From Bacteroidales bacterium (lineage in GTDB: Bacteria > Bacteroidota > Bacteroidia > Bacteroidales > F082), in the NCBI GenBank assembly GCA_017630195.1, contig JAGBVS010000043.1:1-42049 (forward strand): a stretch of 42,049 nucleotides of DNA, read 5' to 3'. The position numbers were made by a program, and so were the translations under genes. Positions 3,333-20,494 of this stretch are shown piece by piece. Within the stretch, counting starts at the first letter, position 1. Each line of letters begins with the position of its first letter. The notes under the pieces were generated by a model. The model did not search any database. It had not been told where the DNA came from and worked only from the letters and a program-made list of their open reading frames with translations.

Positions 3333-3722
3333 ATGCGTAAACGTTTATTAATGGTGACTTTATTGTTCTCCGCTTTGTCTTTTTTATCATGTTCTTCAAA
3401 GAAAGATGTGGCAATTCCTGAGGAAAATAGAGCAGAGGCTTTTGTAAATGACGAAACAATAGTTTCTGAAAATGCTGAAGTCGTTGTCCCTGATTCTGAA
3501 AAACAATCTTTGAAAAGCGATGGCATCTCGTATGAGGAATTGAAAAGAAGACATTATAATATGCAGTCGGATGCGACGAAAAAAATGATGAAAGAGAATG
3601 CCAAAAGAAGTAAGAGAGATACTCCGTTAAGAAAGAGATCGCTTTTCAATTTTGGCAATAATAAATCTTGTGGTGTGGTAAATGATGCTGTTATTAAGGA
3701 TGGCGTAAGAGATGTGAAATGA
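3333..3722 (+). CDS. Small lipoprotein encoded in front of the sensor kinase
   Basis: The protein has 129 residues. The signal peptide MRKRLLMVTLLFSALSFLSC gives a lipoprotein Cys at about residue 20, followed by an acidic segment and then a very basic C-terminal part (ELKRRHYNM, KRSKRDTPLRKRS). I know no domain for it. Its stop overlaps the kinase start by four bases (ATGA at 3719-3722), so the two are translationally coupled. An accessory role in signalling is plausible but inferred from position only. I chose ATG 3333 over a TTG at 3321 because it begins the signal peptide. Confidence 0.75.
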   Translation: MRKRLLMVTLLFSALSFLSCSSKKDVAIPEENRAEAFVNDETIVSENAEVVVPDSEKQSLKSDGISYEELKRRHYNMQSDATKKMMKENAKRSKRDTPLRKRSLFNFGNNKSCGVVNDAVIKDGVRDVK

Positions 3723-6700
3723 TGAATAGGAAAGCCATTTGTTATATTGTCATTTTATTTGTGTTGCTGATGTCTCATGCCGAGATGTCGGGACAAAATA
3801 ACAGTTTGGCTTCTTATGTTCTTAATAAAGATATTTCAAATAATTACGTTTCAAATAGTTACCTCAGTTCAAATATTGTTACAGCCATCGCTCAGGATGA
3901 AAATGGTATGATGTGGTTTGGAACAAAACGCGGATTGAATTCATTCGATAGTTATAATTTTGAAGAATATGACAACGTCGATGGAATCATAAACGCAACT
4001 ATCACTGACATCCAGCCATGTGGAGATAGCCTTTTTATAGCAACGGAAAAAGGTCTGTGCATCTACGATATGAAAAACAAATCGGTTACGAATTTTTTTG
4101 CTGAAACCGATTCCCTCGTCTTGCCTGATAATCACATTTTTCATATAACAAAACCAGTAAAAAATAAAATTACAATATGTGCCAAAAATGGAACATCAGT
4201 ATATGATTTGACAACTAAAAAATTCTATATTCCTAAAATCAACAATTATTTCCCGGAATATGAGGTGCGTCATATCGAATATATTGAACATGACGACTCA
4301 TGGTGGCTGGCTACATCTAACGGACTTGTCAGATACCAAAACGAAAATCAGTCAATACATCATTTCTATCATATTAAAGATGTAAATATGTCGTTGCCAG
4401 ATAATAATCTGCGCTGTATGCATAAAGTTGAAGATGATAGAATATATATCGGGACAGCAAACGGATTGTGCCTACTTGATGTCAATGGCGAAACAATTGA
4501 AAGGATTGATTTGAATTCTTTGACATCTTATAAGTCAAACAAAATTGACATCTCTAAAATTATCTCTTTCAATAATGATGAAATTATGATAAGTACTTAT
4601 ACAGACGGATTGTATATTTATAATCATAAGAAAAATACAGCAACACATATTTCAAAATTTAATCGACGTAATGCTATTTCCGACAATTATGTCTTTGATG
4701 TCTTTAAAGATTCTAATGGCTCTGTCTGGATTGCGACATACGCAGGCTTGAATCGATTTGAAAATAATCTGGCTAATTTCTCAACGGTTAGTTTGTTCCA
4801 AAATGGTTATATCTTGTCGATTAACTATTTCTTGGAAATGAAAAATGACGATTTTCTCCTTGGAACAGAATCAGGCATAAAAATATTTAATATAAATGAT
4901 GAATCCATAAAAGATTTTAAGACGTATTTCAATTCTAAAGAAGATTATTTTGAATCGCTTTATGTATATTGCTTGTATCTTGACGCAGATAGCTGTCTTT
5001 GGGTTGGAACTCGTAATGACGGATTGTTTATTTATGACATAAAATCGGATAAGGTGACTAATGTCGCTGACGAATATGGAATTCCTAACCTCACTCATGC
5101 TGTCGTACGTGGTATAGAGTGTGACAAATATGATAATATGTGGGTTGCGACAAATATAGGATTATGTCGCATTAGTCTGAAAGATAAATCATACGTGTTC
5201 TATAATACAGAAAAGAAAAATAAAAAGTCATTGCCCTACGATGATTTGTTCGATTTGATGCTCGTCGATGATGTACTATATGTCACAACAGGTGACGGGC
5301 TCGCTGTATATAGTTATGAAACAAATGACTTCACTCGTCATTATCTTCCCGATTCTTTGATGAAAGGCGGTGTGGTTAATAATAACGCTCTCTTTGATAT
5401 TGTCGATGGTGGAAACGGACGCTATTATATAGGCTCCTATTCAAGTGGAATGTTAGCATTCAATCCTAAAACAAATACATTTACAACATCAAAAATAAAT
5501 GATAACTCTGGAATTATGGTTTATGCTATTATTCCTGATGAAAACGGATTCCTGTGGGCAAGTACAAGTAAAGGTATTATAAAATATAACCTGACATCTA
5601 AATCTATAACAAGCTATGATAAAAGTGATGGATTGCAAGGCAACGAATTTATACCAAATGCCTTTTTAAGAAGTAGCAAAGGAGTGCTTTTCTTCGGCGG
5701 CTTCAGTGGATTCAATCACTTTAAACCTAAAGATATTCAGCTTGAAAAGAAAATCCCTAAAGTTATAGTGACAAAACTGCAAACTCAAAACGGAAAAAAA
5801 TATCGCTATCTTAATCATGGTGATACCATCCATCTTAATCATAATGATAATTCGTTTGAAATAGATTTTGCGACACTTAATTTATTGAGAAAGAATATGG
5901 TGAAATATTCTTGTATGCTCGATAATTATGACAATGAGTGGACTTCGTACAATTCCGCCCATAGATATGCCGATTATAATAAACTTCGTCCCGGAACCTA
6001 TACCTTTAAACTCAAAGCAGCAAATGAAGTGAACGTATGGACAGAGAAACCATTGGAGCTTACTATAATAATACATCCTGCATGGTATCAGAAAACAATG
6101 TTTAAATTAATGTTGTTTTTAGTTGCTTTATTAACAATATATATTATTGTAAAACAAAGAAGTAAGATTGTCTTGCAGAAGAGGGAACAAAGACGGAAAA
6201 TCAATGAGCTTGAAATGCAAATGGCTCAGTTGAAGCAAAAGACATTGCAGCTTCAGATGAATCCTCATGTTATTTTTAACACATTAAATAGTATTCAGCA
6301 ATATATCATCAATCATGATATAGATAAGGCTGTAAGCTATCTTTCAAGTTTTTCAAAACTCATGAGACGAATATTGAATAACTCGAATGAGCGATTCGTG
6401 CCATTGTCTGATGAAATGGAAGCTGTTAGATTATACCTTGAGTTAGAATCAATGCGTTTAGGAAATCGCTTTAGTTATGAAATAAATATTGACTCCAACT
6501 TGGATGCCGATGATATAGAAATAGCTCCTTTGATTATTCAGCCATTCGTAGAAAATGCTATCATTCACGGACTCGTGCCAAAGAAGGAAAACTGCATCTT
6601 GAAAATATCGTTGTCAAAGATAGCAGAAAACAAAATGTTATGTGTTATTGAAGATAATGGCGTTGGACGTAAATATTCTGAAAAGATAAAGCAAAAAACA

Positions 6701-6862
6701 GGCGCCCATAAATCGTATGGAATGAGCATAACACGAAGAAGATTGGAAATGTTAAGCAAAATCTCAAATGATGATTTCAGTGTGGATGTCGTTGACTTGC
6801 AAAATGACAAAGGTGAACCTTTAGGAACTCAAGTTAAAATAATAATAAGTTATCATGATTAA
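3719..6862 (+). CDS. Sensor histidine kinase with two-component-regulator propeller and LytS-type kinase domain
   Basis: The protein has 1047 residues. A signal peptide (about 1-25) is followed by two-component-regulator propeller repeats of the type GMMWFGTKRGLNSF and GSVWIATYAGLNRF, up to about 660. A Y_Y_Y domain follows (about 690-785), then one membrane helix at about 794-812 and a coiled linker. The His_kinase domain has NPHVIFNTLNSIQ with phospho-acceptor His850 and the N box PFVENAIIHGL with Asn946. It lacks the AraC output domain of hybrid two-component systems, so it should signal to the LytTR regulator 15 bp downstream. The ligand is unknown; related propeller sensors often sense glycans or envelope state. 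Confidence 0.93.
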   Translation: MMNRKAICYIVILFVLLMSHAEMSGQNNSLASYVLNKDISNNYVSNSYLSSNIVTAIAQDENGMMWFGTKRGLNSFDSYNFEEYDNVDGIINATITDIQPCGDSLFIATEKGLCIYDMKNKSVTNFFAETDSLVLPDNHIFHITKPVKNKITICAKNGTSVYDLTTKKFYIPKINNYFPEYEVRHIEYIEHDDSWWLATSNGLVRYQNENQSIHHFYHIKDVNMSLPDNNLRCMHKVEDDRIYIGTANGLCLLDVNGETIERIDLNSLTSYKSNKIDISKIISFNNDEIMISTYTDGLYIYNHKKNTATHISKFNRRNAISDNYVFDVFKDSNGSVWIATYAGLNRFENNLANFSTVSLFQNGYILSINYFLEMKNDDFLLGTESGIKIFNINDESIKDFKTYFNSKEDYFESLYVYCLYLDADSCLWVGTRNDGLFIYDIKSDKVTNVADEYGIPNLTHAVVRGIECDKYDNMWVATNIGLCRISLKDKSYVFYNTEKKNKKSLPYDDLFDLMLVDDVLYVTTGDGLAVYSYETNDFTRHYLPDSLMKGGVVNNNALFDIVDGGNGRYYIGSYSSGMLAFNPKTNTFTTSKINDNSGIMVYAIIPDENGFLWASTSKGIIKYNLTSKSITSYDKSDGLQGNEFIPNAFLRSSKGVLFFGGFSGFNHFKPKDIQLEKKIPKVIVTKLQTQNGKKYRYLNHGDTIHLNHNDNSFEIDFATLNLLRKNMVKYSCMLDNYDNEWTSYNSAHRYADYNKLRPGTYTFKLKAANEVNVWTEKPLELTIIIHPAWYQKTMFKLMLFLVALLTIYIIVKQRSKIVLQKREQRRKINELEMQMAQLKQKTLQLQMNPHVIFNTLNSIQQYIINHDIDKAVSYLSSFSKLMRRILNNSNERFVPLSDEMEAVRLYLELESMRLGNRFSYEINIDSNLDADDIEIAPLIIQPFVENAIIHGLVPKKENCILKISLSKIAENKMLCVIEDNGVGRKYSEKIKQKTGAHKSYGMSITRRRLEMLSKISNDDFSVDVVDLQNDKGEPLGTQVKIIISYHD

Positions 6863-6877
6863 TAATATAAGGTATAT

Positions 6878-7624
6878 ATGATAAGATGTGTTATTGTAGA
6901 AGACGAGGAAATGGCTCGTCAAGTTTTAAAATCGCTGCTCGCACAATATTGCCCTGATGTTATGATATGCGCAGAAGCCGATGATATTACATCCGGACAA
7001 GAAATGATAGAGGCATTTCGCCCTGATTTGGTATTCCTTGACATCGAAATGCCAGGAGGTAGCGGATTTAAATTGTTGAATAATATAAAAGATGTAGATT
7101 TTGAAGTGGTTTTTATAACAGCCTACGAACAATTCGCAATAAAGGCAATCAGACATGATGCGCTTGATTACCTTTTAAAACCAGTCGATCCAAAAGAATT
7201 GGTGGCTGCTGTTGAAAAAGTGAAAGATGCTAAATATAAAAAAACACTGAAAAGACAATACGACACTCTTCTGAAAAACATCGACCCTGAACAACTTGTT
7301 GTGAAGAAAATTAGTATATCAACCTCAGATAAAATACATCTGATTGAAGTGGATGATATAATCCGTTGTGAATCTGATAATTATTATACAATTATTTATT
7401 TTAAAGATGGAACAAGTCTTTTGGTAAGCAAGACTTTAAAAGAAATGGAACAGAAACTTGAAGAATATGATTTCGTTCGTACACATAAATCACATCTGGT
7501 TAATATGCGCTGTATCATGAATTTTATTAAAGATGAAATGATGGTGGTTATGACCGATGGCGTGAAAGTTCCTGTCTCAAAACGAAAAAAAGAGAAAATA
7601 GTAGAGGTTATAAATAATCTTTAA
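6878..7624 (+). CDS. LytTR-family response regulator
   Basis: The protein has 248 residues. The receiver domain (1-120) has the acidic pair E8-D9, phospho-acceptor Asp55 in VFLDIEMP, a Thr in VFITAYEQ and the conserved Lys in DYLLKPV. The LytTR DNA-binding domain occupies about 143-248 (HLIEVDDIIRCESDNYYTII, then VRTHKSHLVNM). It forms an operon with the kinase. LytTR proteins bind paired direct repeats upstream of target promoters. The next gene downstream, the TonB receptor, is a possible target (see the direct repeat at 7734-7785), but this is inferred from position only. Confidence 0.96.
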   Translation: MIRCVIVEDEEMARQVLKSLLAQYCPDVMICAEADDITSGQEMIEAFRPDLVFLDIEMPGGSGFKLLNNIKDVDFEVVFITAYEQFAIKAIRHDALDYLLKPVDPKELVAAVEKVKDAKYKKTLKRQYDTLLKNIDPEQLVVKKISISTSDKIHLIEVDDIIRCESDNYYTIIYFKDGTSLLVSKTLKEMEQKLEEYDFVRTHKSHLVNMRCIMNFIKDEMMVVMTDGVKVPVSKRKKEKIVEVINNL

Positions 7625-7834: not shown

Positions 7835-7842
7835 TATCTTTG
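7835..7842 (+). promoter_or_regulatory. -7 promoter box of the TonB receptor / surface protein / PorV-like operon
   Basis: TATCTTTG matches TAnnTTTG exactly. Only a weak T-rich match is present at the -33 distance. The leader would be about 43 nt before the ATG at 7892. No internal promoter of this type is seen in the two short spacers downstream, which supports one transcript through 17074. Confidence 0.6.
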
Positions 7843-7891: not shown

Positions 7892-10800
7892 ATGTTAAGA
7901 AAATTACTATTTACCCTCTGCATCATGCTGACATCGTGGTCGTTAGCATATGCGCAAGTTGGACGACTCCAAGGTGTTGTTGTCGACAAAGACACTGGCG
8001 AACCAATTCCATTTGCAAACATTATTTTGGAAAATGGCGGTACCCAAGTTGGTGGTGCCAGTTCTGACTTTGATGGCAACTATGACATCAACCCGATCCC
8101 TCCGGGAACCTACGACTTGAAAGCAACTTTCGTTGGTTACAACACTTTCATCATGAAAGGTATTGTTATTCCAGCTAACAAGATTACTTTCCAAGACGTT
8201 AACATGAGCATGCAATCAGAAATGTTGGATGCTGTTGAGATTGTTGACTACAAGGTGCCTTTGATTTCAAAGGATAACACATCTGGTGGTGCTACAATTA
8301 CTGCGGAAGAAATTGCTAAGATGCCTCAACGTTCAGCATCAGCTGTAGCAGCGAGCGTCGGTGGCGTTTTCTCAAGTGACGGTGAAGCAGGTAACATGCG
8401 TGGTGCCCGTGACGGCGCTACTTACTACGTTGACGGCGTACGTGTTATCGGTTCTGCAACTGTACCTCAATCTGCTATTGACCAAGTTGAAGTTCTCTTA
8501 TCAGGTACTCCAGCTATGTATGGTGACGCTACAGGCGGTATCATCAACATGACAACTAAAGGTCCTTCAAGAACCTTTGGCGCTGGCGTTGAAATGGAAA
8601 CTTCAGAATTATTGGACAGCTATGGACATAACAGAGTTGGTCTTAATGTTCAAGGTCCATTGATTAAAGGTAAAAATAGCGAAACTGCTTTGTTAGGTTT
8701 CTTCTTGTCAGGAGAATTTAACTACGATCGTGATGGTGCTCTTTCTGCTGTCGGTCATTACAGAGCTACTGACGAATGGTTAGAGTACATTCAAAACAAT
8801 CCAATCCGTGTTTCCGGTTCAGGTCAAGGTACCTACCTCAACGGTGAATACACAAGAATGGGTTCTATGGAGTACATTAAAAACTCACAAAACACTTCAA
8901 ACTGGAGTGCTAACATCGCAGGTAACATCAATGTTCGTACAACTGAAACAACTAACTTGACTTTCGGTGGTACATTTAACCTTAGTAAGTACAATTCTTA
9001 TAGTAGAAGCAGCGCTTACTTCAACTCAGCTAAAAACGCTGTAGGAAAAGACCAAACATGGCGTGTTTACGGTCGTTTCACTCAAAGATTCCCTTCTCCA
9101 CAAGAAAGTACATCTTTGATTAAGAATTTCTACTACAGTTTACAAGTTGACTATTCTCGCTATAATAGCGAATATGGTGATCCAGATCATTGGGACAATA
9201 TTTGGGATTATGGTTATCTTGGTAAATATACCATCTACAAAACTCCTTCTTATGGTTTCGCTGACTCAACAATCACTGTTACAAATGCAGATGGCTCAAC
9301 ATCTTACTATAGCGGAGTATGGGCAACAACTTCTTGGGATTATGATACTTTAGTAGGCTTTGAAGCTTCAGACCGTAACCCATTGTTGTCAAGATATACA
9401 ACATCCTACTATGATTTGTACACAGATCCACTCGGCCATTATCAAAACTTTACTGACCTTCAACTCGGTGGTGCTCTCTTGAATGGTGATTCTCCTTCAG
9501 CATTCTACGGACTCTACTCAGCTCCAGGTTCTGTTCAATCAAATTATGGATATGGCGAAGTTGATAAATTTAACGTTAACCTTGCTGGTGCTATGACTGT
9601 TGGTAACCACGAAATTAAATTAGGTTTCCAATATGAACAACGTAACAATAGAAGCTATGGTGTAAGCGGTTACAGAATGTGGTATTTGATGAGAAATCTT
9701 GCTAACTTCCATATCCAACAGTTAGACATCGCTAACCCAGAAGTTGTTAGCTATGACGGTTTCGTTGATACAATTCGTTATTACAGAAGATATGACGAAT
9801 CATCACAATATCAATTCGACAAAAATCTCCGTGAAGCATTAGGCCTTAGCGTTGAAGGTTTAGATTGGATCAACATCGACTCTTATGATTTCAATGATAA
9901 TACAATCCAATATTATGACAAAGACGGTGTTATGCATACTGCAACATTATCAAACGGTTTTGATATCAGTATGTTTACTCCAGATGAGTTGACACAAGAT
10001 GGTACCTCATATGTTTCATACTATGGTTATGATTATCAAGGTAATAAGATTAAAGGACAACCAAGCTTTGAAGATTTCTTTACAGAAGTTGACGAAAACG
10101 GTAACTATACACGTCCAGTAGGTTCATTCAAACCTATTTACATGGCTGGTTATATCCAAGATAAATTCGCTTTCAAAGATCTTATCTTCAATATTGGTGT
10201 TCGTGTTGACCGTTTCGATGCTAACCAAAAAGTTTTGAAAGATCCTTATATCCTTTATGACTACAAAACAGTTGGTGATTTAGCTGACGCTAATGGTAAC
10301 ATCACACTTCAAAATGGTTCAGTTGTTGACGTTCCAGATAACATCGGTGATGACTTCGCAGTTTATGTAAATAAAATCGATGACATCTCATCAATCGTAG
10401 GTTACCGTAACGGTAATGTATGGTACGGTGAAGACGGTAAAGAACTTACTGACCCTACAACATTAGATAAAGGTAGCGGTATTTCACCATGGCTCGTTGA
10501 CCCATCACAACGTAGAATCAACACAGCTTCATTTGAAGATTATGACCCACAATGGAGTGTAATGCCTCGTATTTCATTCTCATTCCCAATTTCTGACGAA
10601 GCATTGTTCTTTGCTCACTACGATGTTTTGACACAACGTCCAAATAATAACTTTACTAACATTTATAGTTACTATTACTTTGATCAAATCAGTGGTGCTA
10701 TCGCTAACCCATCATTGAAACCATCACAAACAATTGACTATGAATTAGGTTTTACTCAAAAGTTAACTAACTCATCATCAATGACAATCACTGGTTACTA

Positions 10801-11623
10801 TCGTGAGTTGCGTAATATGATTCAGTTGTATCGTTATACAGGTGCTTATCCTAAAGATTATACATCATTCAGCAACTTAGACTTTGGTACAGTTAAAGGT
10901 TTCACAGCATCATACGACTTACGTAGAACAGGTAATGTTCGTTTGCGTGCAAGTTATACTTTACAATTTACCAATGCAACTGGTGCAAGTACAACAACCA
11001 TGTCTTCATTAATTGCAGCAGGTGTTCCTAACTTACGTTCTACATTCCCAATGCCATGGGACCGTCGTCATCAATTCAATATTGTTCTCGACTATCGTTT
11101 TGGTGAAGGAAAAGACTATAATGGACCTGTTACAAAACGTGAAAACAAGAAAAATATCCAATGGTTGGCTAACACAGGTGCTAGTTTGACAGTTAATGGT
11201 GGTTCAGGTACTCCATATACATCAGCTAAGAACATTTCATCACCTATTTCTCCATCTACAAATATTTTGAATGGTTCAATGTATGGTTCACGTCTTCCAT
11301 GGTCATTCCGTTTTGACCTCCGTGTTGACAAAGACATCAACTTGAAACTCGGTAAAAAAGATGGTGAAAATGGTCGTGATGCTTATATGAATGTATATCT
11401 CCAAGTGTTGAATCTCTTGAATTCTAAAAATATCATGGGCGTTTATAATGCAACAGGTAACCCAGACGATGACGGTTATTTGACAGCCCCTGAATATCAA
11501 CGTGAAATCCAAATTCAAAGAGACCCACAAGCATATACAGATTTATATAGCTTATATGTAAATTATGCTGGTCACTATTCACAACCACGTCAAATTAGAT
11601 TTGGTGTAATCTTTAACTTCTAA
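7892..11623 (+). CDS. TonB-dependent outer-membrane receptor with CarboxypepD_reg domain
   Basis: The protein has 1243 residues. The signal peptide ends at LAYAQ (about 22). A CarboxypepD_reg-like domain spans about 25-105 (GRLQGVVVDKDTGEPIPFAN). The plug domain follows (about 125-235), with GARDGATYYVDGVRVIG and GDATGGIINMTTKG. A 22-strand-type barrel fills the rest, ending in the typical aromatic terminus FGVIFNF. The protein should import or handle a bound substrate using TonB energy. No SusD-like lipoprotein follows. Instead a very large secreted protein and a PorV-like barrel follow, at 25 and 32 bp. Codon choice is strongly biased (GGT, GTT, ACA, CCA), suggesting high expression. The substrate cannot be inferred. 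Confidence 0.93.
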   Translation: MLRKLLFTLCIMLTSWSLAYAQVGRLQGVVVDKDTGEPIPFANIILENGGTQVGGASSDFDGNYDINPIPPGTYDLKATFVGYNTFIMKGIVIPANKITFQDVNMSMQSEMLDAVEIVDYKVPLISKDNTSGGATITAEEIAKMPQRSASAVAASVGGVFSSDGEAGNMRGARDGATYYVDGVRVIGSATVPQSAIDQVEVLLSGTPAMYGDATGGIINMTTKGPSRTFGAGVEMETSELLDSYGHNRVGLNVQGPLIKGKNSETALLGFFLSGEFNYDRDGALSAVGHYRATDEWLEYIQNNPIRVSGSGQGTYLNGEYTRMGSMEYIKNSQNTSNWSANIAGNINVRTTETTNLTFGGTFNLSKYNSYSRSSAYFNSAKNAVGKDQTWRVYGRFTQRFPSPQESTSLIKNFYYSLQVDYSRYNSEYGDPDHWDNIWDYGYLGKYTIYKTPSYGFADSTITVTNADGSTSYYSGVWATTSWDYDTLVGFEASDRNPLLSRYTTSYYDLYTDPLGHYQNFTDLQLGGALLNGDSPSAFYGLYSAPGSVQSNYGYGEVDKFNVNLAGAMTVGNHEIKLGFQYEQRNNRSYGVSGYRMWYLMRNLANFHIQQLDIANPEVVSYDGFVDTIRYYRRYDESSQYQFDKNLREALGLSVEGLDWINIDSYDFNDNTIQYYDKDGVMHTATLSNGFDISMFTPDELTQDGTSYVSYYGYDYQGNKIKGQPSFEDFFTEVDENGNYTRPVGSFKPIYMAGYIQDKFAFKDLIFNIGVRVDRFDANQKVLKDPYILYDYKTVGDLADANGNITLQNGSVVDVPDNIGDDFAVYVNKIDDISSIVGYRNGNVWYGEDGKELTDPTTLDKGSGISPWLVDPSQRRINTASFEDYDPQWSVMPRISFSFPISDEALFFAHYDVLTQRPNNNFTNIYSYYYFDQISGAIANPSLKPSQTIDYELGFTQKLTNSSSMTITGYYRELRNMIQLYRYTGAYPKDYTSFSNLDFGTVKGFTASYDLRRTGNVRLRASYTLQFTNATGASTTTMSSLIAAGVPNLRSTFPMPWDRRHQFNIVLDYRFGEGKDYNGPVTKRENKKNIQWLANTGASLTVNGGSGTPYTSAKNISSPISPSTNILNGSMYGSRLPWSFRFDLRVDKDINLKLGKKDGENGRDAYMNVYLQVLNLLNSKNIMGVYNATGNPDDDGYLTAPEYQREIQIQRDPQAYTDLYSLYVNYAGHYSQPRQIRFGVIFNF

Positions 11624-11648
11624 ACAGAAATAAAAAATTACTGAAAAT

Positions 11649-14600
11649 ATGAAGACTATTGTTCGTTTATTAATTGTTGCATTCCTTTTCATGAATGTAA
11701 CAGAATTGAGAGCAGAGAAGGTCAAAATGAATGACTCTAAATCTCGTGCTATCAGAGGTACAACAGCTGGATGTTCTCCGTCTTCTACATTTGCTTGGTT
11801 GAATATCAACAATGCAAGAGTACGTGTTAATGCCGGTGGTGACATGTGGTGGGATTTACCTGGTGGAACAGGATCTAAATATTATATTCCTGCTAATGGT
11901 TCAGCTACATCATTGTATGCTGGTTCTCTTTGGATCGCTGGTCTCGACATTAACCAACAGTTGAAGTGTGCTGCTATCCGTTTCCGTCAAGTTGGTAACG
12001 ACTTCTGGACAGGCCCTCTTACTATAGATGGTACTGCTTCAATTCTTCCAGAAACATGTATGGAATACGATAAAATGTACACTATCACACGTGCTGAAGT
12101 TGATGAATTCTTAGCAAATTGTGATCCGGAAACAGGTGATTTCAATCCTGCTGAAGGTTATGAAATCCCTACATCAATCGCAAATTGGCCAGCTCACGGT
12201 GACCCTTCAAAAGGTATGAGTAATTACTTAGCTCCATTCTTTGATAGAAATGGCGACGGTAAATATATACCTCAAGATGGTGATTATCCTTATTATGATA
12301 TCGATAATGAACTTTGTCATAGCCAAGTTCCTACAATGGACGAATCTGTAGAAGGTTCTATTGAAGGTTCTATCTTAGCTGACCAAGTTATCAAAGGTGA
12401 CCAAACTATTTGGTGGGTTTTCAACGATAAAGGTAATGCTCACACAGAAACAGGTGGTTCTGCTATCGGTATGGAAATTAGAGCTCAAGCTTTTGCTTTC
12501 GCTACTAATGATGAAATCAACAACATGACTTTCTATAGTTATGAAATTATCAACCGTTCAACTTATACCTTAACAAATACTTACTTCTCACCTTGGACTG
12601 ACGTTGACCTTGGTTATTCAAGAGATGACTTTGTCGGTTGTGATGTGAGCCGTGGTTTAGGTTATGGTTATAATGGTTCTAACATTGACGGTAATGGTGA
12701 ACCTGAATCATACGGTGCTAATCCTCCTGCAGTAGGTGTTGACTTCTTCCAAGGTCCATATTTGGATCCAGACGGAATCGACAATCCTAAATATAATCCT
12801 ACAACAGGTGAAAACTGTGATGAAAGTATTAATGGTGTTAACTTCGGTAATGGTATTGTTGACGATGAACGTTTCGGTATGCGCCGTTTCGTTTATCACG
12901 ATAATGATGCTACTGACCACGGTGACCCTGACAAAGCTTCAGAATATTATAACTACCTTAGAGGTATTTGGAAAAATGGTGACAAAATGCATTTCGGTGG
13001 TAATGCTTTCCCTGGTTCACCAGGTGTAACAGAAGTTCCTTGTGACTTCATGTTCCCATACGATTCTGACCCTTGTGATTGGGGTACAGGTGGTTTACCA
13101 ACAGGTTTCCCTGGTTATTGGAGTGAAGAAACTGGTAATAACGGTTCTCCAAATAACCCTGCTGACCGTCGTTTCATGCAATCAGCTGGTCCTTTCACAT
13201 TGAAACCAGGTGCTGTTAACTATATTACTTTCGGTGTGCCATGGGCTCGTTCATCAGCTGGTACAGCTTGGGCTTCAGTAGAATTATTACGCCGTGTTGA
13301 CGATAAATGTCAATCAATGTTTGACAACTGCTTTGACGTTCTCGATGGTCCTGATGCTCCAGACCTCACATTCCGTGAACTTGACAAGAAACTCATCGTT
13401 TATATTTCTAACTCAGAAAATTCAAACAACTACGGTGAATCTTATACAGAAGTTGACCCACAAATATGCGGTCCTCTTGCTACTGACTCAACATTACGTA
13501 ACGACTCAACATATCGTTTCGAAGGTTATGTTATATATCAATTAGCTAATAAAGAAGTTAGTGTTGAAGATCTTAACGACATCTCAAAAGCTCGTATCGT
13601 TTATCAATGCGACGTTAAGAACGATGTATCAAGAATCATTAACTATATCTATGATGATCAGTTACAAGCTTCTGTACCTACACTAATGGTTGAAGGTAAT
13701 GACGAAGGTATTAAAAATACATTTGTTATCACTCAAGACGAATTTACAACAACAGGTGACGTAAATTTGGTTAACCATAAGACATATTATTATATGGCAA
13801 TTTCTTATGCTTATAATAATTATCAAGATTATGAAATCGATCCTAACAACCCAGTTGCATTGTACGGTCAAAAGACTCCATACCTTGCAGGTCGTAAGAA
13901 TATCAAATTGTACTCAGCAGTTCCTCACAAAACTGTAAATGGTACAGTGATAAATTCTAATTATGGCGACAAACCACAAATCACACGTTGGGTAGGTCTT
14001 GGTAATGGTGGTAATCAACTTGAACTTACAGATGAAACTGTAAATGAAATCTTAAGCAAACAACCAGCAAGCGAAACTAATGTGTTTGGTAGTCCAGACT
14101 ATCCAATAGCATATCACCCAACTTATAAAGCTGGTTATGGTCCTATCGATGTTAAGATTATCGACCCATTGAATGTTGTATCAACAGAATATGCTATTTG
14201 GTTTGAAGATTTCAAACATAAGTATATCAAAAATGTTACTGGTGATGTTATTGTATTAGGTGATTCAACAGAAAAACAAATTTTCAGATGGAAACTTAAA
14301 GATTTAAATACAGGCGAAGTATTTGAATCAGATACAACATCAGATTTCCAATCAGAAAATATTTTCCTTGAAAGAGGTATTTCTGTTACAGTATATCAAC
14401 CATGGAATGTCGGACCACTCCAAGTTGGTACTCACTTCAATTCTTCATCTAACTCATACGACGCTGTATGGCGTACACTTGCACCAAATAATGGTCTTAT
14501 CACAACTTCAGTTACATATGCCGACTCTTCAAATAGATGGTTAAGCGGTATCAGAGATGATGATAATATTCCTTCATCACCAATCAACTGGATTCGTTCA

Positions 14601-15977
14601 GGTAACTATGGTAACCAAGATGATGCAAGTGAAAACGACTATAGTGTTGCTTCAACATCTACAGGTGTATCAAAACCATATGACCCATCAGAAGATTATG
14701 AAAATATTGCTGATGGTACATGGGCTCCAATGATTTTAACAACTCCTTATATTAGCAATGTTCCAGGTCCTCTTCACAAAACTAACTGTAGAGTTGACTC
14801 ACTCTTCAGAAGATTAGGTTCTATTGACATCGTTTTAACTGCTGATAAATCAAAATGGACTCGTTGTGCTGTAATCGAAATGTGTGGTGATAAGAATTTA
14901 TCTGAAGGCAATGCTCCATCATTCACATTACGTAGAGCTCCATCAGTTGATAAAGAAGGCAAACCATGTACAGATATGGAAATGGAAGCAAGTACTGATC
15001 CAAATGCTGCTAACTATATCTCTTCAAGAGGTATGAGCTGGTTCCCAGGTTATGCTATCGATGTCGAAACTGGTGCACGTCTCAACATGTGCTTCTCAGA
15101 AGATTCATTCTATCCTGATTTGAACGGCCGCGATATGTTATTCAACCCACCAGCATTGAAAGAAACAACAGTATTGTCAGCTCCATTAGCACAGCTTTCA
15201 GACCCAGTATTGTTCGATGCAGTAGATGCAACTCCAGTATTTGGTGGTAAACACTTTGTATATGTATTCCCAATGAATGACGCTGGTGAACAAGGTACAT
15301 TAATGTACAAATCACCTGCTTATGATGCTGGTGCATACATCTGCAATACATTGAAGGAAATAGAAACATTAGCTTCAGCACACCAAAAAGTTCACTACAT
15401 TAAGTTCTGGGGTCAACCATTATGGGTTGGTATGCCAATGGCTGTAGAAGGAAGAGAATGGTTACAAGAAGGTAATCCTGTTAAAATTTCTGTACGTGTT
15501 GCAACTCCATACAGATCTGGCTATAGCGATATGCCACTTGAACAAGTAACAGATGAGTTATATGATACAGAAGAACATAATGGTTACCAACCATATTATA
15601 CATTCTCAACAAACGGTTGTGCACCAACACTCAAAGATCTTGAAAAAGGCGAAAGCGATCTTAATATGATTACCGTAGTACCTAACCCATACTATGCATT
15701 CTCAACATATGAAGATAACGCTCTTACACATAATGTAAAGATTGCTAACGTTCCAGATAAGTGCGTTGTGACAATCTATACAGTAAATGGTGCTAAGATT
15801 CGTCAATTCAAGAAAGACTCAAATGTTACATCAATCGATTGGGATTTGACTAACCATGCTAATACACCTATTGCTTCAGGTTTCTATATCATCCATGTTA
15901 GAGACCTCGTAAATGGTGGTGAAAAGACAGTTAAATTCTATTGTGCAATGCGTCAAGTTGACTTAAATACATTCTAA
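11649..15977 (+). CDS. Very large surface protein with T9SS-like C-terminal sorting domain
   Basis: The protein has 1442 residues. A signal peptide (about 1-23, ending LRAEK) precedes an N-terminal region with AGSLWIAGLD and a Ca-binding-like loop DRNGDGKYIPQDGD. Aromatic, Gly/Asn-rich segments follow (DVDLGYSRDDFVGCD, PPAVGVDFFQGP). The last 100 residues form a sorting-type Ig domain that starts at VVPNPYYAFS (about 1343). It continues with VVTIYTVNGAKIRQF, DWDLTNHANTPIASGFYIIHV and an unusual tail CAMRQVDLNTF. No catalytic motif was recognised. A 12-bp tandem duplication at 12351-12374 gives EGSIEGSI. Its place between a TonB receptor and a PorV-like protein points to T9SS export and surface display; this is inference. 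Confidence 0.85.
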   Translation: MKTIVRLLIVAFLFMNVTELRAEKVKMNDSKSRAIRGTTAGCSPSSTFAWLNINNARVRVNAGGDMWWDLPGGTGSKYYIPANGSATSLYAGSLWIAGLDINQQLKCAAIRFRQVGNDFWTGPLTIDGTASILPETCMEYDKMYTITRAEVDEFLANCDPETGDFNPAEGYEIPTSIANWPAHGDPSKGMSNYLAPFFDRNGDGKYIPQDGDYPYYDIDNELCHSQVPTMDESVEGSIEGSILADQVIKGDQTIWWVFNDKGNAHTETGGSAIGMEIRAQAFAFATNDEINNMTFYSYEIINRSTYTLTNTYFSPWTDVDLGYSRDDFVGCDVSRGLGYGYNGSNIDGNGEPESYGANPPAVGVDFFQGPYLDPDGIDNPKYNPTTGENCDESINGVNFGNGIVDDERFGMRRFVYHDNDATDHGDPDKASEYYNYLRGIWKNGDKMHFGGNAFPGSPGVTEVPCDFMFPYDSDPCDWGTGGLPTGFPGYWSEETGNNGSPNNPADRRFMQSAGPFTLKPGAVNYITFGVPWARSSAGTAWASVELLRRVDDKCQSMFDNCFDVLDGPDAPDLTFRELDKKLIVYISNSENSNNYGESYTEVDPQICGPLATDSTLRNDSTYRFEGYVIYQLANKEVSVEDLNDISKARIVYQCDVKNDVSRIINYIYDDQLQASVPTLMVEGNDEGIKNTFVITQDEFTTTGDVNLVNHKTYYYMAISYAYNNYQDYEIDPNNPVALYGQKTPYLAGRKNIKLYSAVPHKTVNGTVINSNYGDKPQITRWVGLGNGGNQLELTDETVNEILSKQPASETNVFGSPDYPIAYHPTYKAGYGPIDVKIIDPLNVVSTEYAIWFEDFKHKYIKNVTGDVIVLGDSTEKQIFRWKLKDLNTGEVFESDTTSDFQSENIFLERGISVTVYQPWNVGPLQVGTHFNSSSNSYDAVWRTLAPNNGLITTSVTYADSSNRWLSGIRDDDNIPSSPINWIRSGNYGNQDDASENDYSVASTSTGVSKPYDPSEDYENIADGTWAPMILTTPYISNVPGPLHKTNCRVDSLFRRLGSIDIVLTADKSKWTRCAVIEMCGDKNLSEGNAPSFTLRRAPSVDKEGKPCTDMEMEASTDPNAANYISSRGMSWFPGYAIDVETGARLNMCFSEDSFYPDLNGRDMLFNPPALKETTVLSAPLAQLSDPVLFDAVDATPVFGGKHFVYVFPMNDAGEQGTLMYKSPAYDAGAYICNTLKEIETLASAHQKVHYIKFWGQPLWVGMPMAVEGREWLQEGNPVKISVRVATPYRSGYSDMPLEQVTDELYDTEEHNGYQPYYTFSTNGCAPTLKDLEKGESDLNMITVVPNPYYAFSTYEDNALTHNVKIANVPDKCVVTIYTVNGAKIRQFKKDSNVTSIDWDLTNHANTPIASGFYIIHVRDLVNGGEKTVKFYCAMRQVDLNTF

Positions 15978-16009
15978 TTATTATGCGAACAAAATTAAAA
16001 AGTACGATC

Positions 16010-17074
16010 ATGAAAAAGTTATTTAAATCCATCGTTATAGTAAGCTTGACAATCTTAGTATTAGGATTAAGCAATACAGCATTCGCAGGTAATAAGGATA
16101 GAACAGGTCAAGCTGGTGCAACAGAATTGTTAATTAACCCATGGGCTTCATCAGCTGGTTGGGGTAATGCAGGTATGTCATCAATTCACGGTGTAGAAGC
16201 TATGTGGAGTAACGTTGCAGGTATTACTGGAACAAACTCTATAGATTTGAACTTCTCATACACAAATTGGTTAAAAGGTTCAGACGTTAATGCTTACTCA
16301 TTCGGTTTCCTCGCAAGAGTTTCTGAATCAGTTGTAGCTGGTCTCTACGTTATGTCATTCAACCCAGGTGAAATCTACAGAACTACAGAAGAATCTCCTG
16401 ATATGACATTAGGTACTTTCAAACCAAATTTGATGAATATTAACGTAGCAGTTGCTAAATCATTCTCAAATAGTATTCATGCAGGTTTCGTTTTGAAAAT
16501 CATAAGCGAATCAATTTCTGATATGGTTGGTACTGGTTTCGCTCTCGATGCTGGTATCCAATATGTAACAGGTATTACAGACAATATTCACTTTGGTATC
16601 ACATTGAAGAACATTGGTACAACAATGAAATTCGGCGGTGACGGTATCTCATTCAAAGCAAATCCAGATTCATTCTGGGGATCTGAACTTACAGTTATCC
16701 ACCGTGCTGACCAATTTGAATTGCCAACACAATTGAATATTGCTGCTGCATACGATTTCAATTTCACAAATGGATCACGCCTCACAGCTGCTGGTAACTT
16801 CTCTTCAAACTCTTTCTCAAAAGACCAAGTAACATTAGGTCTTGAAGGAGCTTTCAAAGATTACTTGATCCTTCGTGCTGGTTACACAATTGAAAACGGT
16901 ATCTGGAAAGATATTGAATTAGATGACTGCACAAACGTAAACAATGGCTTGTCAATGGGTGCTTCAGTACAAGCTCCTCTTAGTGAAAATATGAAAGTCT
17001 CTGTTGACTATTCATACCAACACACACACCATTGGAACGGTACTCACACTATAGGCGCAAGAATTATTTTCTAA
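16010..17074 (+). CDS. PorV/PorQ-family outer-membrane beta-barrel protein
   Basis: The protein has 354 residues from MKKLFKSIVIV. A signal peptide ends near NTAFAG. The mature N-terminus, with GQAGATELLINPWASSAGWGN, GMSSIHGVEAMWSNVAGI and later SFNPGEIYRT, fits the PorV/PorQ (FadL-like) family, and the last strand ends in GARIIF. PorV is the T9SS subunit that receives substrates from the translocon and passes them to the attachment complex. An ATG at 15983 would add nine basic residues; I prefer 16010 because it starts a normal signal peptide. As the third gene of the operon it may be a dedicated shuttle for the 1442-aa protein (inference). Confidence 0.85.
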   Translation: MKKLFKSIVIVSLTILVLGLSNTAFAGNKDRTGQAGATELLINPWASSAGWGNAGMSSIHGVEAMWSNVAGITGTNSIDLNFSYTNWLKGSDVNAYSFGFLARVSESVVAGLYVMSFNPGEIYRTTEESPDMTLGTFKPNLMNINVAVAKSFSNSIHAGFVLKIISESISDMVGTGFALDAGIQYVTGITDNIHFGITLKNIGTTMKFGGDGISFKANPDSFWGSELTVIHRADQFELPTQLNIAAAYDFNFTNGSRLTAAGNFSSNSFSKDQVTLGLEGAFKDYLILRAGYTIENGIWKDIELDDCTNVNNGLSMGASVQAPLSENMKVSVDYSYQHTHHWNGTHTIGARIIF

Positions 17075-17126: not shown

Positions 17127-17164
17127 AGGGCCCTTATTTCGGTAAGGGTCTCTTTTTTCTTTTT
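17127..17164 (+). terminator. Terminator-like hairpin inside the greA leader (possible attenuator)
   Basis: CCCTTA and TAAGGG pair around a short loop, extended outward by G-C and G-T pairs, and are followed at once by a long T-rich run (TTTTTTCTTTTTT). It lies just downstream of the promoter at 17103-17110 and upstream of greA, so it cannot be only the end of the previous operon's transcript. It should yield a short leader RNA of about 45 nt unless RNA polymerase reads through. The greA leader of E. coli is known to have a comparable terminator that produces GraL RNAs. Confidence 0.65.
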
Positions 17165-17190: not shown

Positions 17191-17664
17191 ATGGCTGAAT
17201 TTGAATATTTTACACAGGCTGGACTTCAGAAATTAAGAGACGAATTGGATCGTCTTATTCTCGAGGAACGTCCAAAAGTCGTTCAGGCAATTGCTGAAGC
17301 TCGTGATAAGGGAGATCTTTCAGAAAATGCCGAATATGATGCTGCTAAAGAAGCTCAACAACATCTTGAAATGAAGATTGTTGAATTGCAACAATTAATC
17401 ATGAGTGCTCGTGTACTTGATGAATCAAAAATGGATACATCTAAGGCTTTGCTTCTCTCAACAGTAAAAATTAAGAACTTGAAGACTAATGCCGTCATGG
17501 CTTATACTCTCGTTCCTGAAAAAGAAGCTGACCTTAAAAATCATAAAATATCCGTTACTTCTCCAATCGCTAAAGGTCTTCTTGGAAAATCTGTTGGTGA
17601 TCAGGTTGAAATACAAGTTCCTGCAGGAAAGGTTATGTTCGAAATCATTGAAATAACACGATAA
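17191..17664 (+). CDS. greA: Transcription elongation factor GreA
   Basis: The protein has 157 residues, the standard family length. The N-terminal coiled coil carries the acidic tip in DLSENAEYDAAKEAQ (about 43-57). That tip enters the RNA polymerase secondary channel and stimulates cleavage of backtracked transcripts. The C-terminal FKBP-like domain (about 85-157) ends in PIAKGLLGKSVGDQVEIQVP and a final IIEITR. It is followed after four bases by the HIT gene, so they form a short operon. The hairpin in its leader suggests regulation by premature termination. Confidence 0.97.
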   Translation: MAEFEYFTQAGLQKLRDELDRLILEERPKVVQAIAEARDKGDLSENAEYDAAKEAQQHLEMKIVELQQLIMSARVLDESKMDTSKALLLSTVKIKNLKTNAVMAYTLVPEKEADLKNHKISVTSPIAKGLLGKSVGDQVEIQVPAGKVMFEIIEITR

Positions 17665-17668
17665 CATT

Positions 17669-18055
17669 ATGGCAACTATTTTTTCAAGAATAATTAACGG
17701 TGAAATACCTTGCTATAAAATAGCTGAAAACGAAAAATTCTTCGCTTTCCTCGATATCAATCCATTGATGAAAGGTCATACACTTGTTATTCCTAAAAAA
17801 GAAGTAGATTATATTTTCGACATTGAAGATAATGATCTCGGAGAAATGATGATATTTGCTAAGCAAATAGCAAGTAAAATCAAGGATGTTATTCCTTGTG
17901 TTAAAGTCGGTGTAGCGGTGATTGGTCTCGAAGTGCCTCATGCTCACATCCACCTCGTCCCTATGCAAAAAGAAGGTGATTTGGACTTTAAGCGCGCTAA
18001 ACTACAACTCTCACAAGAAGAATTCTTAGAGATACAAAAACAATTAGCGTTTTAA
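17669..18055 (+). CDS. HIT-family nucleotide hydrolase/transferase
   Basis: The protein has 128 residues. The histidine triad is HAHIH at 91-95, followed by LVPM, where the middle His of the triad is the expected nucleophile. The N-terminal signature SRIINGEIPCYKIAE and FAFLDINPLMKGHTLVIPK are typical of the HINT branch, which hydrolyses purine nucleotide phosphoramidates. The natural substrate in bacteria is uncertain. The greA-HIT order is, from memory, common in Bacteroidetes. It ends before a bidirectional hairpin shared with the convergent DUF5686 gene. Confidence 0.95.
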   Translation: MATIFSRIINGEIPCYKIAENEKFFAFLDINPLMKGHTLVIPKKEVDYIFDIEDNDLGEMMIFAKQIASKIKDVIPCVKVGVAVIGLEVPHAHIHLVPMQKEGDLDFKRAKLQLSQEEFLEIQKQLAF

Positions 18056-18133: not shown

Positions 18134-20494
18134 TTAAAAATTGAATCCTGCACTTAATTTTAAAGTGAAATTATCAGAAACCTTGTCAAATGAATAAGGC
18201 CCATAACGGTAAAAGATTCCTAATCCTAATTTATTAAACATTGTCTTGATAATACTATCAATGACTATTCCGCTTTCGTAATATCCCTTACTTAAATCTT
18301 TTAAATCATAGTTGTTCTCATTGCTTAATTTGCCCCATGCAATGTTGGTGACTAAGATTAGTTCAGGATGGAAATTCTTAAAATCTATTAACAGATTTCT
18401 GAAGTTATGCGAGAAAAATAATGCAGCGAATCTGTCACAGAAAAACTCCTCTGGTCGCATCGTATTGAAATTGTCTGTGCTGTATAATTCGAATTTTCCT
18501 TTGTTGCTTCCAAAAATGTTGAATAAATCTGTAATAGGAGCGACTCCGCTGATATATCCTAATTGTGCAGTCATTGTAGTGGTGCCGACATATCGTGTAT
18601 CTTTGCTTCCTTTAAATTGTAATTCCGCTTTGTCGAAATTGTATGGACTTCCAAATATATCTTTTAAGTTTTTCTGATATGAAACCCAGATGACTGGATT
18701 TGGAATGCCTTCTGTTCTTAACTTGTTTCCATCTCTTGCAAACTTCTCATTGAAAGCTATCCTCAATACAAAATCCAAAGTGCTTAATCTGTATGTGGTA
18801 GTCTCTTCCCAATTAAAAGGTGTTTTGTCGGCGACTTCAAAGTTGACGAATCCTTTGATGTATTTGTTAAAATATGTTGAATAATTGGCAGAAATACTAT
18901 TGTTCAATGATGTCGCATTAACATAAAAGAGTTTGTAGTCTGATGGGTCGAAGATGTTAGTCTTGCTTTCGAAACCATAATCTCCTAATCTCTCGAATTT
19001 ATGTTCGGCGGAAAACTTCAGTTTCATGTCTTTTGAACCTAATAAATTAATGTCCAAATTGCCTCCGTAATTGAATTCTTTTGCCTTAAACCAATAGTTT
19101 CCGTATCCGCCTAAGGAAACAATTTTAGATACTTTCTCGTTGGTGTTTAACCCTAATCCGAGCATAAAACCGTTGCCGATGTTATAATCAATGATATTGT
19201 CGAAATTAAGATTAATGAAACCAATAGGTATTTCATTATCCATTAATGAATTTATATATTCGAAGACATTGTCAAAGTTGAAGTTTATTTCTTTAAATGC
19301 GTTTTCTATATATTTGTAAGTCGCTTCCAATCGTTCTTCATCGAGTTTTTCATAACGATAATATTTTATTACATCATCATGGTTTTCCACATTTTCGCTG
19401 ACCGAATAATCGCTCATGTCGAAAATATTCTTGTCTATTTCTTTGTTTATTTCTATTTCGCTGATATAACTCTTTCCGATGCCGCATAAGATTCCGTCGG
19501 TGTTAGCATCGACGGCTCCTTCTAAAACGATTTTCATGTTGGTGTTAAGTTGCTTTGGGAACCATGCGCCATCAACTTTTTCATATAATTGTTGAATGTC
19601 GATGCTAAAAATATCCTGTTTGTTAGGTTCCGCTTTAATATTCTGAATCGCCCAATTGTCGGAGTTGATTGTCATCGTTCCTCTCAAGGAATTGAAAGTC
19701 GTGTTTTTGTAAGGCGCAAATGCGATGGTGAAAATACTGTCATTTTCTTCTGTTTTATAAGCCGATTCAAGATAGAATATATATTTATTGTGACTTCCTT
19801 TGCTTATAGGATTGACATATTTTTTATTGTTTATCGTGACTAAGTCTTCTTGAAAACCAATGCTTTGGATATTTTCTATAAGATAAACTCCGTTAGAATT
19901 GTTTAGTCCGGATACCTTTTTGGCAAGAATAATCTTTTTGTTTTTATTTGGTTTTTGATAATATTGTTCCGAGACGGTCTCCATCACCATGAGGTCGTTG
20001 TTTCTAAATTCCTGACGTAGTTCATCGTTAGGAGAGAGGTTGCTCGTGTCAACGGTGAAAATCATATTGTCGTACATCTTATAATGATAAGAGTCGAGAC
20101 TCTTCGGATTGTTGGAATCTCTATATTTAAAGACACTGTCGATGATACGGTTGGCAGGATTTTTTGTTCCGTCAATCACGATTTCCGACAATTCGATGTT
20201 TTGTGGTTTTAGTCTTACTGAAATATTATTTTCACCTTCAATGATGTCAACTTTCTTTTTCTCATAACCGACAAAAGAGAATGTGAGGCTTTTTATTCCC
20301 TCTTTGCTTTTAATGGTGAAATTGCCATCGATGTCGGATGTAGTGCCGAGAGTTCCGTTTTCATTGACGACAATATTCACGAAAGCCAATTTCTCTTTAG
20401 AAGCCTCATCCGTCACGGTGCCACTGATGAAATTCTGACCGCTAATTTCCAGAAATAATAATGACAGTAATATTAATACAATGAATCTTCTCAT
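18134..20494 (-). CDS. DUF5686 outer-membrane protein with CarboxypepD_reg-like domain
   Basis: The protein has 786 residues. The signal peptide (about 1-19, ending ISGQ) precedes a CarboxypepD_reg-like domain at about 21-97 (FISGTVTDEASKEKLAFVNI, then FVGYEKKKVDI). The DUF5686 region begins near RIIDSVFKYRDSNNP and continues through a predicted beta-barrel, with GYGNYWFKAKEF and SAEHKFERLGD, to a C-terminal Phe (LKLSAGFNF). The family is widespread in Bacteroidetes and its function is unknown. The domain order resembles a TonB receptor without the plug. It probably follows the MazG-like gene in one transcript, after a 41-bp spacer carrying a heptamer element. Family assignment is confident. 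Confidence 0.88.
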   Translation of the reverse strand: MRRFIVLILLSLLFLEISGQNFISGTVTDEASKEKLAFVNIVVNENGTLGTTSDIDGNFTIKSKEGIKSLTFSFVGYEKKKVDIIEGENNISVRLKPQNIELSEIVIDGTKNPANRIIDSVFKYRDSNNPKSLDSYHYKMYDNMIFTVDTSNLSPNDELRQEFRNNDLMVMETVSEQYYQKPNKNKKIILAKKVSGLNNSNGVYLIENIQSIGFQEDLVTINNKKYVNPISKGSHNKYIFYLESAYKTEENDSIFTIAFAPYKNTTFNSLRGTMTINSDNWAIQNIKAEPNKQDIFSIDIQQLYEKVDGAWFPKQLNTNMKIVLEGAVDANTDGILCGIGKSYISEIEINKEIDKNIFDMSDYSVSENVENHDDVIKYYRYEKLDEERLEATYKYIENAFKEINFNFDNVFEYINSLMDNEIPIGFINLNFDNIIDYNIGNGFMLGLGLNTNEKVSKIVSLGGYGNYWFKAKEFNYGGNLDINLLGSKDMKLKFSAEHKFERLGDYGFESKTNIFDPSDYKLFYVNATSLNNSISANYSTYFNKYIKGFVNFEVADKTPFNWEETTTYRLSTLDFVLRIAFNEKFARDGNKLRTEGIPNPVIWVSYQKNLKDIFGSPYNFDKAELQFKGSKDTRYVGTTTMTAQLGYISGVAPITDLFNIFGSNKGKFELYSTDNFNTMRPEEFFCDRFAALFFSHNFRNLLIDFKNFHPELILVTNIAWGKLSNENNYDLKDLSKGYYESGIVIDSIIKTMFNKLGLGIFYRYGPYSFDKVSDNFTLKLSAGFNF

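Follow-up and report, generated by a model that had tools for sequence, protein, structure and literature searches.

A recurrent operon of a TonB-dependent receptor, a type IX secretion-like surface protein and a PorV-family barrel in the Bacteroidota

Proteins carrying type A C-terminal domains (CTDs) of the type IX secretion system (T9SS) are said to share a single carrier, PorV, and private carriers are described for type B domains (passages in PMC12618676 and PMC12635249). Loops of PorV hold the CTD within SprA, as stated in a section of PMC10994853, and the CTDs of PorU and PorZ have been reported to remain uncleaved after export, bound to PorV and PorQ, respectively (parts of PMC10202324 and PMC11285876). 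The stretch of 42,049 nucleotides analyzed here (the window) covers positions 1–42,049 of contig JAGBVS010000043.1 (contig C9 of a 2.74-Mb Bacteroidales genome that is 84% complete; assembly GCA_017630195.1). It contains an operon coding for a TonB-dependent receptor, an exported protein of 1442 amino acids (aa) referred to as P4, and a barrel protein of the PorV/PorQ family. We hold with roughly even confidence that this operon specifies one outer-membrane unit resembling SusCD, in which P4, anchored at the cell surface, would serve as capture protein for the receptor.

Gene order and its recurrence

The three genes are located on the + strand behind a two-component system and are followed by greA and hit (17191–18055; Table 1). 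A preceding sequence-only reading had placed them 25 and 32 bp apart, which is confirmed by the open reading frames (ORFs), the second distance holding if the barrel gene starts at 16010 (MKKLFKSIV...), the start preferred here over that of the longest ORF (15983–17074). By eye, each of the three proteins has a Sec-type signal sequence and no lipobox. The CarboxypepD_reg (56.1 bits) and Plug (33.6 bits; cut-off 23.9) domains of the receptor both score above their cut-offs, the TonB barrel model PF00593 remains below (21.4 bits; cut-off 27), and neither of two weak NCBIfam matches is to a SusC model.

The claim that this order recurs across the phylum was borne out by gene neighborhoods in 80 loci, chosen as the best among 585 confirmed stretches of GTDB genomes and thus leaning to near relatives, and by triads in other classes. 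The window's nearest relatives among the best loci are Bacteroidales metagenome-assembled genomes from animal guts. The receptor gene lies directly upstream of P4 in 76 of the 80 loci, the barrel gene directly downstream in 77, and both are in place in 75, with median gaps of 30 and 34 bp. Three of the five loci lacking the full triad are at contig ends (L051, L079, L087), and the other two (L112, L114) are additional copies, their assemblies carrying triads at L104 and L109; in L112 (9992–15384) two tandem P4 genes adjoin neither a receptor nor a barrel match. Relatives of GreA (76 loci), HIT (72), and AhcY (24) occur as neighbors, and the constant order together with GreA and HIT indicates that this copy is old and syntenic in these loci. 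Among the genomes of 60 relatives, own included, P4 was found in 44, comprising 35 of 35 in the same genus and 8 of 24 in the same order; one genome of the genus (G014) is matched only by a short P4 paralogue.

On the phylum level, the P4 profile matched 228 of 392 sampled genomes (E 1e-3), many of them weakly or in the CTD only. Eight genomes of other classes contain 9–28 PorV-family matches each, and six of these were followed (G395 and G175 were left out), taking 72 of the 73 PorV genes over the cut-off with up to 10 kb of upstream sequence; the one left out is a split match in G361. With profiles built for this purpose from core loci, i.e., those of the window's type, 40 of the 72 genes were found in triads of receptor, CTD protein, and PorV-family barrel (9 in G401, 2 in G132, 14 in G326, 8 in G361, 4 in G242, and 3 in G313). 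Each of the six genomes has one or two core units. The remaining PorV genes have only a CTD protein (6), only a receptor (5), or neither (21, true PorV and PorQ included) next to them. Three of the CTD-only cases are proteins of 1327–1348 aa adjoining true PorV, which by size and place are probably PorU; the others are cut at the contig end (L240), have no receptor within the 1.2 kb to the contig end (L241), or follow P4-like ORFs (L227). All five receptor-only cases (L177, L199, L217, L232, L244) represent a variant operon, present in five genomes, in which the CTD protein of the triad type is followed by an ordinary type A protein, a third protein, the receptor, and PorV. Judged by eye, the third protein is a lipoprotein in L177, L199, and L217, and a small lipoprotein-like ORF follows PorV in these three and in L244. 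Six triad receptors compared with Pfam all have CarboxypepD_reg and Plug, the latter slightly below the cut-off in two. In a sample of 60 genomes of the phylum, PorV-family matches numbered 0–6 (median 4) in 14 other members of the window's class, 0–3 in 13 members of family f43, and at least 8, up to 26, in 28 of the 32 remaining genomes.

The members of the 40 triads diverge together. Pairwise distances were correlated between PorV and CTD (0.73), PorV and receptor (0.87), CTD and receptor (0.81), PorV and P4 body (0.86), and receptor and body (0.92), and for each pair none of 5000 within-genome permutations reached the observed value. SusD_RagB (PF07980), counted in 12 genomes, is absent from G401, G326, and G361 (9, 14, and 8 triads), occurs 1, 2, and 3 times in G313, G242, and G132 (3, 4, and 2 triads), and 2, 13, and 24 times in G100, G123, and G217. 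Since the count is also zero in all three genomes counted from the genus of the window, in which a SusD belonging to other Pfam families exists, the relation between triad and SusD numbers is suggestive at best.

Protein families of the barrel and of P4

The barrel protein scores above the cut-offs of the PorV/PorQ family model NF033709 (122.2 bits; cut-off 90) and of Pfam PorP_SprF (PF11751; 29.5 bits; cut-off 22.3), and below that of TIGR03519 (17.9 bits; cut-off 90.55). Its identification as PorV (NF033710; 57.8 bits; cut-off 250), PorQ (NF033711; 66.5 bits; cut-off 220), or PorV2 (NF052325; cut-off 325; no match at E 0.1) was rejected, and five triad barrels that were scanned did not reach the PorV, PorQ, or PorV2 cut-offs either. 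Among the T9SS components searched, the window's own genome encodes SprA (SprA_N, 559.6 bits) and a PorV (contig C120, 471 bits) and a PorQ (contig C117, 299 bits) that are distinct from the window barrel. A tree of 82 PorV-family proteins placed true PorV (7 rows; support 100/99) and PorQ-like proteins (7 rows) in one clade each, separate from the window barrel, which grouped in a clade of 17 consisting of 16 core-triad rows and L227 (100/99). The barrels of multi-copy triads formed a clade of 40, including 8 rows from outside strict triads (98/94). A receptor tree calculated by a quick method agreed with regard to the core group (16 rows; SH-aLRT 100). The alignments A1–A5 consist of selected rows (13, 13, 64, 85, and 22, respectively), with 30 of 51 loci not readable straight through being taken into A4.

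P4 had been described as a T9SS-type protein, which holds with regard to the kinship of its CTD to PorZ and PorU, whereas the score against the type A sorting domain TIGR04183 (20.2 bits) is below the cut-off of 23, and PF18962 gave no match at E 0.1. A profile of 22 triad CTDs matched PorZ (E 3e-6), PorU (0.0017), and FlgD (0.014 and 0.018) in the PDB, followed by a glycoside hydrolase (0.28) and an exonuclease (1.3); the CTDs of RgpB, HBP35, and RemZ, which are solved according to passages in the literature, were absent from these six matches up to E 5. The NCBIfam PorZ model matched the CTD in 5 of 9 triad proteins (E 0.01) with 14–35 bits, compared with a full-length cut-off of 260. Judged by these profiles, the P4 CTD is closest to the PorZ and PorU CTDs and not an ordinary type A signal; a 651-aa protein of the window (36967–38922) whose sorting domain is of the ordinary type A served as contrast.

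The CTDs of PorU and PorZ share an extra hairpin (described in a section of PMC11285876). The hairpin segment W-x12-G-x-[YFV] is present in all 81 core P4 and all 40 triad CTDs; of 59 ordinary type A CTDs encoded in these loci, 6 contain it (81/81, 31/40, and 5/59 with a stricter expression). One of the six hairpin-bearing type A proteins adjoins the genome's own PorV and is probably PorU. The 59 controls exclude five proteins matched by both profiles, namely three core P4, the triad protein L211, and a further protein, L209 230–2395; the last one has the hairpin, and the control becomes 7 of 60 if it is counted. Core P4 furthermore extend 8 residues past the aligned CTDs of the multi-copy triads, which lack this tail. 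Across the 81 core P4, R1435 and D1438 are invariant, and K1429 and the last Phe are conserved in 98% and 95%, respectively. PorU with eight histidines on its C-terminus was still translocated, according to a passage in PMC11285876, and a C-terminal tail thus need not block export.

No Pfam family scored above its cut-off for P4, and the N-terminal region had no match to PDB sequences up to E 1; matches of the whole-P4 profile to AP-2 sigma (E 0.19–0.79) look like chance. An AlphaFold2 model of residues 1–770 (mean pLDDT 83.3, pTM 0.79) consists of strands and some helices. Gly, Asp, and Asn are abundant in the conserved columns of the N-terminal region, a composition that would suit calcium binding.

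Homologs of P4 also occur in other arrangements. Contig C208 of the window's genome (L248 7739–18401) codes for a short P4 paralogue of 502 aa that shows no CTD match. It is clustered with genes for a SusC-like receptor, a SusD-like lipoprotein, and a T9SS protein of 853 aa containing a PNGase F-like domain, a setting that fits a role of the P4 region in uptake loci. Eleven tandem ORFs of 479–574 aa on contig C96 of G313 (L249 896–19901), the last of which is cut, are homologous to the P4 N-terminal region; they have type A-like CTD ends by eye, and the single one scanned contains Por_Secre_tail. In G361 (L254 1536–17275), a core-type triad is followed by three tandem P4-like genes (1161–1167 aa), for which the 19-kb stretch contains no own barrels.

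Promoter, candidate regulator and neighboring genes

The sequence-only reading had also noted a recognizable promoter. This holds for a TAnnTTTG box, which we take to be the Bacteroidota −7 motif: in 40 of 73 loci, counting the window, such a box occurs no more than 250 nt upstream of the receptor, compared with 17% of shuffles, and it is accompanied by a −33-like box in 12 of 73 loci compared with 2% of shuffles. A scan for sigma-70 promoters, on the other hand, found sites no more frequently than in shuffles. The Reg_prop kinase and LytTR regulator encoded upstream are a possible regulator pair of the operon; relatives of the kinase occur in 23 and of the regulator in 25 of the 80 best loci. 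Downstream, on the opposite strand, a DUF5686 protein with a CarboxypepD_reg domain is encoded (window 18134–20494), a relative of which is present in 3 of the 80 loci.

Table 1. Features of the operon and its surroundings in the window
Feature	Position	Strand	Basis or remark
Reg_prop/Y_Y_Y sensor kinase and LytTR response regulator	3719..7624	+	Domain scan; directly upstream of receptor
TAnnTTTG promoter box (TATCTTTG)	7835..7842	+	57 nt 5' of receptor ATG
TonB-dependent receptor, 1243 aa, CarboxypepD_reg and Plug	7892..11623	+	ORF and domain scan
P4, 1442-aa exported protein	11649..15977	+	ORF and domain scans; signal peptide by eye
P4 conserved N-terminal region, about residues 39–727	11763..13829	+	Profile comparison, AlphaFold2 model
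PorZ/PorU-like CTD with W-x12-GxY segment, about residues 1336–1434	15654..15950	+	Profile search
8-residue C-terminal tail of P4, RQVDLNTF	15951..15974	+	CTD alignment
PorV/PorQ-family barrel, dedicated paralogue, 354 aa from 16010	16010..17074	+	Family models, tree
Terminator-like stem and T-run 3' of barrel gene	17128..17151	+	Weak alone: 7 sites in region compared with 6.3 in shuffles

Proposed function, alternatives and known systems

According to the proposed mechanism, P4 would be exported across the inner membrane by the Sec pathway and across the outer membrane by the T9SS translocon. Its PorZ/PorU-type CTD would be retained and, together with the tail, dock on the PorV-family barrel encoded by the adjoining gene, which would load P4 in the translocon and anchor it at the surface, similar to what has been reported of PorQ with PorZ and of PorV with PorU. 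The N-terminal part would then be positioned over or beside the TonB receptor, where it could capture a ligand or polymer and pass it on to TonB-driven import, a role that SusD or BtuG has at other receptors.

Several observations weigh against this mechanism. No feature of the unit hints at a ligand. Genomes can do without the unit, as 16 of the 24 of the same order lack P4 and 15 of these have SprA; the presence of SprA in all 8 P4-bearing and in 15 of 16 P4-lacking genomes makes its co-occurrence uninformative. Given the receptor, the correlation between PorV and CTD drops to about 0.08 (calculated by hand), and co-divergence therefore shows block inheritance, not particular contact. P4 itself gave no match to the NCBIfam PorZ model at E 0.1, a profile from the window's near relatives alone showed weak PorZ kinship (E 0.027), and the glycoside hydrolase match concerns the last 60 residues of that protein, perhaps an ordinary T9SS CTD. 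The hairpin section of PMC11285876 bears the title 'functionally not relevant', so that the hairpin marks kinship rather than non-cleavage. Finally, the triads were selected with a core-CTD profile and are biased toward such CTDs, other kinds being counted as absent.

The barrel might instead be a dedicated shuttle, the role originally suggested for it. In such a case it would take P4 from SprA, PorU would then cleave the CTD, and P4 would end up on lipopolysaccharide or be released into the medium, while the receptor would be co-expressed and nothing more. PorV acts in this manner on type A cargo (parts of PMC10994853 and PMC12618676), and the near-invariant K1429 may correspond to the Lys that is conserved in type A CTDs. 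The barrel indeed is a paralogue apart from the genome's own PorV and PorQ, but since the nearest kin of the P4 CTD, those of PorZ and PorU, reportedly stay uncleaved, the role of a permanent anchor suits the barrel better than that of a shuttle, and one private barrel gene per substrate likewise fits an anchor, similar to type B carriers (passages in PMC12635249); we consider the shuttle rather unlikely. It is also conceivable, albeit clearly unlikely, that P4 and the barrel form a surface unit while the receptor, linked to them by shared regulation, imports a related substance without touching P4. The five variant operons, which place other genes between CTD protein and receptor, speak for this; however, receptor and P4 body are the tightest of the five pairs (r 0.92), and their adjacency is kept across classes.

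A role in assembly or envelope maintenance instead of nutrient uptake, comparable to the FadL-family protein BamG holding BamH, is suggested by the loops of BamG that bind a surface protein (parts of PMC12578637 and PMC12611786), by a match of one core barrel (L204) to the BamG model (35.5 bits; cut-off 250), and by the synteny of the Bacteroidia copy with GreA and HIT (76 and 72 of the 80 best loci). The window barrel, however, has no BamG match at E 0.1, its partner is a TonB-dependent receptor, and up to 14 paralogous units per genome suggest diverse ligands, and we regard such a role as very unlikely. GreA and HIT remaining nearby could in principle point to chance or mere synteny of unrelated genes, but the recurrence of triads at many places within single genomes leads us to reject a chance neighborhood, which is hardly credible.

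If the capture model applies, private PorV-family barrels beside a CTD protein and a receptor would break the one-carrier rule for type A CTDs, and would help to explain the 8–26 PorV-family matches in 28 of the 45 genomes sampled from other classes. The T9SS would then have a direct part in nutrient import. Evenly balanced, in our estimate, is the broader proposal of a second great class of Bacteroidota TonB uptake systems beside SusCD, composed of a receptor, a T9SS capture protein with non-cleaved CTD, and a private PorV-type anchor, which would exist as one or two tail-marked core copies and, in several non-Bacteroidia classes, as paralogous units (up to 14) that may replace SusCD. Gene order and tail would provide a simple rule giving context to many unnamed surface proteins.

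In the titles and abstract beginnings of open-licence PMC literature, no account of the triad was found, and the closest described systems each share a part of it. Like PorQ–PorZ and PorV–PorU, it combines a PorV-family barrel with a protein whose CTD is related to those reported as retained (in the passages cited above); unlike in PorQ–PorZ, P4 has no PorZ model match at E 0.1, the barrel reaches 66.5 bits compared with the PorQ cut-off of 220, and a TonB receptor belongs to the unit. SprF–SprB of the PorP/SprF type (type B) resembles it in that the carrier gene adjoins the substrate gene and the SprB-type substrate stays bound (parts of PMC12618676 and PMC12635249), but P4 has no type B CTD match, and the barrel passes NF033709 and Pfam PorP_SprF while failing TIGR03519. 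BamG–BamH likewise consists of a FadL-type barrel whose loops hold a surface protein, but the families differ, and no link to BamA was seen for the window unit. PorV2 (NF052325) is likewise a PorV-family paralogue, and the sole PorV2-like row scanned (L189) falls into another clade. SusC–SusD and BtuB–BtuG share with the operon a TonB receptor and a cognate surface protein encoded next to each other. P4, which the earlier suggestion places in the position of SusD, and the six flanking proteins scanned match no SusD family, and a SusD-type partner was rejected; in contrast to the surface partners of these systems, which are lipoproteins, P4 carries a CTD, lacks a lipobox by eye, and has its own outer-membrane barrel. 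The operon would represent a TonB system in which a T9SS-type protein, provided with an anchor of its own, acts as surface partner.

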